This document shows positions 14,326 to 15,522 of a DNA stretch of 64,000 nucleotides, one piece after another; within the stretch, counting starts at the first letter, position 1, and every line of letters begins with the position of its first letter. Origin of the DNA: Candidatus Poribacteria bacterium (GTDB taxonomy: Bacteria; Poribacteria; WGA-4E; WGA-3G); contig OY282386.1 in assembly GCA_958295945.1 (NCBI GenBank), forward strand, positions 744,001-808,000. Direction: 5' to 3'. The position numbers and the translations under genes are program-made. Below the pieces are notes generated by a model. The model saw only the letters and a list, made by a program, of their open reading frames with translations. It was not told the origin of the DNA and searched no databases.

Positions 14326-15522
14326 ATGAATTCCTCATCTATCTTGTTTTATACTGGTGCTGCGTTTATCTCATTTGCTGCAGCGAGTATGTCATCTTCC
14401 GATACCATTGAAAAACCGATTGAACCGCCATCGACTATCCGAGATAAATTTGAAATGTCCGAATTTTACCAACAGTGGATAGATGTTGGTGGCTTTCCTG
14501 TTGTTTCATCTGAGAAGGTGGATCCACATGCTTTGCAGGAAGCAGCTTGGCTCATTCAGCAAGTTATTGGACACCGACCAGATTTACTACAAGCACTTGC
14601 GGAAAATAATGTTCGGTTCTCCATTATGGCATACAACGAGATGACGACTAAGATTCCTGAACATAGTGATCTAAAGCCGGACTTTTATTGGGATCGGCGA
14701 GCACGTGGTTTAGGAGCAACTTCTGCACGTCCCTCAGTGAGTTGTGGTGAAGAAAATCTGCTTAATTATTCGGGGGATCCTTACGGAACTGAGAACATAC
14801 TTATTCATGAGTTTGCTCATGCATTACATCAGATGGGACTTAGCACCGTTGACCCAGATTTCGATAAACGGCTTAAGGTTTTGTATGAGGCAGCGATGGA
14901 GAAAGGTTTGTGGAAAGGCACTTATGCTTCTACAAACAAAGAGGAGTATTGGGCTGAAGGGACGCAATCTTGGTTCAATACGAACCGAGAAAACGATGCA
15001 CAGCATAATCATGTGAGTAAACGCGGAATATTGAAAGAATATGATCCTGACTTGGCAGAGCTGCTCACCGAAATTTATGGTGACACAGATTGGCGGTATT
15101 CTAACGCTGTCAAACGGCTCAATCTACCACATTTGCGGGGATATGAACCTGATAATGCCCCAAAGTTTGCGTGGCCTGCCGATCTTGCAACATGTTATGA
15201 CCAACTCTTTGACGAGAACTGTGAAGGTGGGGACAAATGGACAGATTTGAAACGTTACGAACCGAGTCAACTTTCAACGTTGAAGTCTCAAGACGGTGAC
15301 AACACTGCCGTTCTTTTTGTGAACAAAACTGAGACTGATATTACTTATTATTGGATAGATGCTAATGGCAATGAGTCTTATCGCGGGCGCGCTGCCGCGA
15401 ATGCCTATAGCATCCATCATACGCATGCCGGTCATATTTGGCTTGTGAAAGATCCTGATGGACAGGACCTTGTTGTGTTTCAGGCTGAAGAAAAGACTGG
15501 TCGTGCATTTATTGACAAGTGA
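14326..15522 (+). CDS. Secreted zincin metallopeptidase with C-terminal VHL-like domain
   Basis: 398 residues from ATG 14326; the longer frame from 14182 would run through a dispersed repeat, whereas MNSSSILFYTGAAFISFAAA is a plausible export signal. Zinc motif H161-E162-F-A-H165 in LIHEFAHALHQMGL, with a second conserved glutamate segment EEYWAEGTQSWF (about 206-215), suggests a gluzincin-type peptidase. Residues about 328-398 (AVLFVNKTET... YYWIDANG... HAGHIWLVKDPDG) resemble the beta domain of the von Hippel-Lindau protein, which in bacteria appears as a secreted binding module. An amino-acid ABC transporter operon follows 68 nt downstream, so extracellular peptide breakdown coupled to uptake is a reasonable inference. 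Confidence 0.82.
   Translation: MNSSSILFYTGAAFISFAAASMSSSDTIEKPIEPPSTIRDKFEMSEFYQQWIDVGGFPVVSSEKVDPHALQEAAWLIQQVIGHRPDLLQALAENNVRFSIMAYNEMTTKIPEHSDLKPDFYWDRRARGLGATSARPSVSCGEENLLNYSGDPYGTENILIHEFAHALHQMGLSTVDPDFDKRLKVLYEAAMEKGLWKGTYASTNKEEYWAEGTQSWFNTNRENDAQHNHVSKRGILKEYDPDLAELLTEIYGDTDWRYSNAVKRLNLPHLRGYEPDNAPKFAWPADLATCYDQLFDENCEGGDKWTDLKRYEPSQLSTLKSQDGDNTAVLFVNKTETDITYYWIDANGNESYRGRAAANAYSIHHTHAGHIWLVKDPDGQDLVVFQAEEKTGRAFIDK

Follow-up and report, generated by a model that had tools for sequence, protein, structure and literature searches.

A zincin peptidase with a VHL beta domain in a Candidatus Poribacteria bacterium and its possible role in hydroxyproline recognition

The gene located at 14326..15522 (+) of the window, the whole stretch of 64,000 nucleotides from a Candidatus Poribacteria bacterium analysed here, codes for a protein of 398 amino acids (plus stop) in which an N-terminal gluzincin-type peptidase (HEFAH...E) is followed by a C-terminal VHL beta domain. 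The reading we find best supported, held with moderate confidence and drawn mainly from relatives, is that peptides with hydroxylated prolines are docked by the VHL domain to an exported proline-oriented peptidase. In a wider formulation, which we also place somewhat on the probable side, VHL serves in several bacterial phyla to read hydroxyproline for exported, proline-oriented zincins and DPP4-like peptidases which use prolyl-hydroxylated proteins as nutrients, and the window gene would be the metallopeptidase form of these peptidases. Relatives outside the phylum lend a hydroxyproline-directed function strong support, though of an indirect kind; in the window organism itself the case is weaker.

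The zincin and VHL domains

The list of open reading frames has an upstream in-frame ATG at 14182. We have taken 14326 as the start because the corresponding Met is also the first residue of the relatives L034, L035, L036, L039 and L042 in the alignment. Residues 1-25 (14326..14400, +) are hydrophobic by inspection and resemble a signal sequence, so that the peptidase is probably exported or secreted; in the AlphaFold2 model this part has a pLDDT below 50. The model as a whole, built from a 22-sequence alignment, has a mean pLDDT of 88.3 and a pTM of 0.84, with about 89-96 in the VHL part. The same genome codes for a paralogue of 425 amino acids (at L001) which is 52% identical to the window protein.

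The zincin domain covers approximately residues 29-253 (14410..15084, +) and was delimited by profile search, VIA-align and sub-threshold Pfam matches as having the fold of the Pro-Pro endopeptidases (PPEPs) and lethal factor. It holds the zinc motif HEFAH at residues 161-165 (14806..14820, +), followed by Tyr200 at the oxyanion-Tyr position, Glu206-Glu207 with the third zinc ligand, and Glu211 (14923..14958, +). H161, E162, H165, Y200, E207 and E211 are invariant in all 22 aligned sequences, and judged from these residues the catalytic site of the peptidase part is intact. In VIA-align residues 35-253 superimpose on PPEP-3 with Z 15.4 (3.5 A, 187 residues), followed by PPEP-2 (Z 15.1), PPEP-1 (Z 14.3) and lethal factor (Z 13.5), and PPEP-1 was the top PDB match of a profile made from 20 zincin sequences (E 0.0012). 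The initial annotation had called the protein a zincin, which the invariant residues and the fold match bear out; the likeness to Pro-Pro endopeptidases it had missed.

PPEP-1, -2 and -3 (ATLF-type zincins) are thus the closest solved fold (Z 14-15) and the best sequence-profile match, and the zincin fold, HEXXH, third Glu ligand and oxyanion Tyr of the PPEP type are all present in the window protein. The HEXXH, Tyr and Glu-Glu also stand at matching spacing; the distance from Tyr to Glu is 7, equal to that of the pairs Tyr178/Glu185 in PPEP-1 and Tyr190/Glu197 in PPEP-3 given in the excerpted text of PMC12828418. The window protein differs from the PPEPs described in such excerpts in carrying a VHL domain and in that the S-loop residues Trp103 (PPEP-1 numbering) and Tyr113 are not conserved. 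Trp103 is aligned with Ala126 in the sequence alignment, the sole basis of this comparison, and Pro-Pro cleavage is therefore not implied; for the same reason we describe the fold as PPEP-like without assigning the domain to the PPEPs. A plain assignment to Pfam M90 (20.9 bits against a cut-off of 26.2, E 2.9e-4) or to ATLF (17.6 bits against 27.4, E 0.0032) was rejected, both scores being below threshold.

The VHL beta domain occupies residues 318-398 (15277..15519, +), as found by VIA-align, Foldseek and Pfam VHL. The Pfam VHL profile (PF01847) matches the window protein at residues 327-385 with E 0.0067 and 16.9 bits, which is below the cut-off of 21, so that the call is marginal from the window sequence alone. 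The paralogue scores 36.7 bits (E 1.8e-8), and matches above the cut-off were found in 40 of the 84 genomes of the phylum, mostly in open reading frames of this type of about 400-460 amino acids. The best PDB matches of the AlphaFold2 model in Foldseek are pVHL chains (E 2.0e-6), and VIA-align places residues 318-398 on pVHL with Z 10.4 and an rmsd of 1.7 A over 81 residues at 21% identity. A chance occurrence of the VHL pattern was rejected, being contradicted by the paralogue, the orthologues and the predicted model, and we regard the identification of the VHL domain as firm. The VHL-like C-terminus proposed by the initial annotation is in this way confirmed, and the structure prediction it had called for gives a VHL fold; the Pfam search it had suggested fell short of the cut-off for the window protein itself and exceeded it for the paralogue and the orthologues.

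The hydroxyproline pocket

According to the excerpted text of PMC9528729, six residues make up the hydroxyproline site of pVHL, namely Trp88, Tyr98, His110, Ser111, His115 and Trp117, and of these Ser111 and His115 bond the hydroxyl. Alignment to human VHL places the equivalents at 15352..15441 (+) as W343 (W88), R353 (Y98), H365 (H110), T366 (S111), H370 (H115) and W372 (W117). The window protein thus keeps five of the six positions, with Thr replacing Ser111. At the Tyr98 position the window clade has Arg353, with Y352 one residue earlier; the paralogue has kept all five core residues. The annotation had named a different beta sandwich or a missing pocket as what would speak against its VHL idea; the VHL fold and the equivalents of W88, H110, S111 (Thr), H115 and W117 argue for the idea, and the exchange of Tyr98 for Arg353 is the one point which goes the other way.

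Conservation was ranked by entropy among 55 columns in a set of 87 domains, that is the distinct VHL domains of the non-zincin proteins and of the short zincin-VHL proteins. The ranks were 2 for W88, 3 for H115, 4 for W117, 7 for S/T111 and 12 for Y98; the H110 column ranked 33 of 55 in the same set. The pocket columns are conserved beyond the others in a Mann-Whitney test with p 5e-4 for the five residues and 2e-3 when H110 is added.

The pocket was also tabulated by architecture for 103 distinct VHL rows from loci L001-L197, loci L198-L217 being judged by inspection only. All five core residues are present in 27 of the 29 non-zincin VHLs, a group drawn up without a row-by-row Pfam scan and including one LRR protein (L073). 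The same holds for 37 of the 58 short zincin-VHLs; 17 more lack Tyr98 only, and at least four of the five residues are found in 54 of the 58. Among the long fusions of the WD40/LRR type the full set was found in 1 of 16. By these counts certain architectures hold the pocket under constraint and others have lost it, the window clade being intermediate. By separate observation, the pocket residues are largely lost in the long Poribacteria zincin-VHL fusions at L062, L064-L066, L069, L070 and L050.

Gene neighbourhoods in the window genus and in other phyla

The amino-acid importer which the initial annotation had placed next to the peptidase is real. It consists of genes for a substrate-binding protein (15591..16607, +; TIGR01096 below cut-off), two permeases (16652..17887 and 17948..19195, both + and above the TIGR01726 cut-off) and an ATPase (19211..19993, +; best model GlnQ with 313.5 bits, below its cut-off). 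A homologue of the substrate-binding-protein gene lies downstream of the zincin-VHL gene in all 15 window-type loci, L033-L047, of the window genus, and the full four-gene importer is found in 8 of them, some contigs ending early and some having other genes. No importer was found near the paralogue or at nine loci of family mates (0/10), and importer linkage as a general rule was for this reason rejected.

PhyH is a broad family. The annotation had also pointed to PhyH-type hydroxylases nearby; a PhyH gene is present (21781-22629), and its value as a sign of prolyl hydroxylation did not hold up, since the family is too broad for such neighbours to be accepted as prolyl hydroxylases. No hydroxyproline catabolic genes of the HypR-regulon type were found beside the window gene. 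A search for a Pro_racemase-family epimerase (PF05544) found none in the window genome and, across the phylum, a positive result in 1 of 84 genomes. The route by which bacteria usually degrade hydroxyproline is therefore not seen in the window genome, and the presence of an epimerase pathway in this organism is unsupported.

The window protein has matches in 60 of the 97 genomes searched (E 0.001, any match, own genome counted), and the matching records include Candidatus Poribacteria, Planctomycetota, Verrucomicrobiia and others; the fusion of zincin to VHL occurs in Planctomycetota and Verrucomicrobiia records as well. In the phylum of genome G100, reached via a Planctomycetota-titled record, VHL is present in 32 of 246 genomes. 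The architectures comprise zincins without a partner domain (e.g. L078-L080, L055, L058, L059), long Poribacterial zincin-VHL fusions that also contain WD40 or dockerin parts, and a protein in which VHL is joined to LRR and the zincin is missing. VHL is also found in DPP4-like S9 peptidases, ahead of the propeller in L060 and L074 and C-terminal in L172. At L060 a tandem-zincin gene begins in the last letters of the DPP4-VHL gene, start and stop codon overlapping as ATGA, and at L057 (4929-6278, a Verrucomicrobiales record) a zincin of the same family is fused to a cyclophilin-type prolyl isomerase (Pro_isomerase E 1.1e-26), with a 4-hydroxyproline-epimerase-like gene (L175) about 4 kb away on the same contig.

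Some single proteins among these relatives should be mentioned. The second copy in the tandem zincin of L060 (4983-6563) seems to have no HEXXH (RVFARALHS by inspection). At L174 (4457-6688) a gene that joins zincin-VHL to a SASA-type acetylesterase comes immediately behind an Xaa-Pro aminopeptidase-like gene. L173 (1875-2684) has a VHL match in a protein of 270 amino acids whose start looks by inspection like an ArsR-type regulator, next to genes of radical-SAM-like and glycyl-radical-like appearance.

The association with hydroxyproline genes was found in the phylum of genome G086 (201 genomes). The rows used were 58 for PF05544 with E <= 3.5e-71 and 41 for the zincin with E <= 1.5e-32, weaker rows being dropped. 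VHL is present in 52 of the 201 genomes, zincin matches in 60 (35 of them strong) and a strong Pro_racemase match in 57. The VHL carriers are mostly DPP4-like peptidases (at least 40 of 54, among the DPPIV_N matches listed), and zincins without VHL are common. In 12 of the 29 genomes with both genes, spanning the five families f14, f31, f36, f39 and f45, VHL and the Pro_racemase gene are no more than 5 kb apart, where about 0.13 is expected if placement in a 4.5-Mb genome is random. For zincin and racemase the corresponding number is 4 of 22; VHL and zincin are fused in three genomes and lie within 5 kb of each other in 3 of 20. Co-occurrence in the same genome is enriched too, with Fisher p values, kinship ignored, of 9e-7 for VHL and racemase, 1e-5 for VHL and zincin and 3e-6 for zincin and racemase. 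As a control, the 150 DPPIV_N matches listed were divided by their VHL domain: among racemase genomes 8 of 20 DPP4s with VHL and 1 of 81 without it were linked (p 5e-6), the VHL-minus DPP4 of L241 lying outside these 150. It should be noted that all linkage statistics for VHL, zincin, racemase and DPP4 ignore phylogeny. The lone linked VHL-minus DPP4 of this control (L246) was rejected as VHL-minus, because our own VHL profile finds a VHL domain in it.

A survey of all 58 racemase loci, up to 8 kb on either side, found a D-amino-acid-dehydrogenase-like gene in 41, a DHDPS-like gene in 38 and an aldehyde-dehydrogenase gene in 19, which are the genes for breaking down L-hydroxyproline in bacteria according to the excerpted text of PMC6608401. 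DPP4 with VHL is found in 13 of these loci and DPP4 without VHL in 4; of the latter, L254 is cut at the contig start, L237 is apparently internally deleted, and L235 and L241 are truly without VHL. A zincin of the window family and an Xaa-Pro-peptidase-like gene each occur in 4 of the 58. For each of the seven racemase-family proteins that were scanned (L172, L175, L191, L192, L193, L194, L196) the best-fitting models were those for 4-hydroxyproline epimerase, with scores under the curated cut-offs and well ahead of proline racemase. At L219 genes for an aldehyde dehydrogenase, an Xaa-Pro peptidase, a DPP4-VHL, a dehydrogenase, an epimerase, a zincin and a DHDPS-like protein form a stretch on a single strand. 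Finding VHL genes beside hydroxyproline-degrading genes suggests that VHL reads hydroxyproline in bacteria too.

Proposed role, alternatives and related systems

The docking model can be described as follows. The VHL pocket would, as in pVHL, hold the side chain of 4-hydroxyproline and thereby dock the peptide to the peptidase; the zincin part, of PPEP/lethal-factor type and with an intact active site, would cut near proline or hydroxyproline; and the peptides or amino acids freed outside would then be imported, in the window genus presumably by the neighbouring ABC importer. Collagen or another host protein, the target considered in the initial annotation, is a candidate substrate. The points against the model are the lack of the epimerase route, the change of Tyr98 to Arg, the absent S-loop Trp, the many zincins without VHL in the phylum of G086, the zincin being close to an epimerase in only 4 of 22 genomes there, and the missing importer at the loci of the paralogue and the family mates.

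Some of these points would also be explained by a VHL domain that binds proline or polyproline, or is a generic peptide-binding sandwich, on a scavenging or housekeeping peptidase, with no specific recognition of hydroxyproline in the window lineage. The missing epimerase (none in the genome, 1/84 in the phylum), the Arg at the Tyr98 position and the general amino-acid type of the importer all fit such a protein, and the proline-linked partners of the family (cyclophilin, Xaa-Pro peptidase, DPP4) need no hydroxylation. However, the S/T111 and H115 positions, which bind the hydroxyl in pVHL in the excerpted text of PMC9528729, stay conserved, and VHL marks the DPP4s found in hydroxyproline clusters; we consider this explanation possible and rather unlikely.

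A further step away would be a VHL domain which no longer binds a ligand in the window clade and is now a structural spacer, as maybe in the long WD40/LRR fusions. The single full set of core residues among the 16 long fusions indicates that pocket loss does happen in this zincin-VHL family, and the Y98R exchange of the window clade could be a sign of it. The idea is nevertheless improbable, as the window protein keeps the equivalents of W88, H110, S111 (as Thr), H115 and W117, the paralogue has all five core residues and 54 of 58 short zincin-VHLs have at least four. We give slightly less weight still to a target on the bacterium's own surface instead of host or dietary proteins. This would be in the style of PPEP-1, which has the same fold and frees cells by cleaving adhesion proteins (excerpted text of PMC11460543), but the S-loop Trp of the PPEPs is not conserved, and the importer neighbour together with the hydroxyproline clusters of the relatives fits nutrition better.

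The docking model can be compared with several known systems. The window protein shares with the pVHL beta domain, the only part compared, the fold (Z 10.4) and most of the hydroxyproline-pocket residues; it is unlike pVHL in the changes of Ser111 to Thr and Tyr98 to Arg in the window clade and in having its VHL on a probably exported peptidase. The bacterial DPP4-VHL S9 peptidases in hydroxyproline clusters (L172, L193-L196) have a conserved-pocket VHL on a peptidase of a proline-oriented class, but they are serine peptidases with VHL before the propeller or C-terminal, and the window phylum is without the epimerase linkage. In the HypR regulon of Streptomyces coelicolor an exported zinc metallopeptidase is co-regulated with an epimerase, a D-Hyp dehydrogenase and a DHDPS-like deaminase; the window gene likewise codes for a zinc metallopeptidase that is probably exported, whereas the HypR peptidase is an M9 collagenase with no VHL among the domains listed (excerpted text of PMC6608401). 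Finally, EMK97_00595 of Litorilituus sediminis also has a bacterial VHL beta domain and predicted export; no peptidase is mentioned in the excerpted main text, and its authors propose use as a tumour suppressor and not hydroxyproline nutrition (PMC9002001). This paper was the only one on bacterial VHL domains returned by our literature search, for which subscription journals were mostly outside reach. The search found none on VHL-bearing bacterial peptidases or on their link to hydroxyproline catabolism. The tie between VHL-bearing peptidases and hydroxyproline-epimerase-like loci in the phylum of G086 is, within this search, new.

VHL is known for reading hydroxyproline in oxygen sensing, and targeted protein degradation commonly uses it as a handle. 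If bacteria use it on hydroxyproline peptides, the domain would gain a place in ecology and perhaps an origin. Hydroxyproline recognition by VHL may in that case be an old nutritional device, older than, or parallel to, VHL oxygen sensing in animals. The bacterial domains would also be natural hydroxyproline binders of differing specificity, and their peptidases a lead to enzymes degrading hydroxyproline-rich host or algal proteins.

Elsewhere in the window, two consecutive sulfatase genes lie upstream of the peptidase gene at 9046-11898, the first fitting choline-sulfatase just under the cut-off. Two large adjoining open reading frames (32583-35399 and 35466-38321) share 56% identity along most of the sequence, and both are ECF sigma factor-like at the start by inspection. 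Two 346-aa open reading frames at 2001-3038 (+) and 62327-63364 (-) code for an identical protein in inverted orientation; a stretch of 1090 bp is 100% identical, and they are probably copies of one mobile element.
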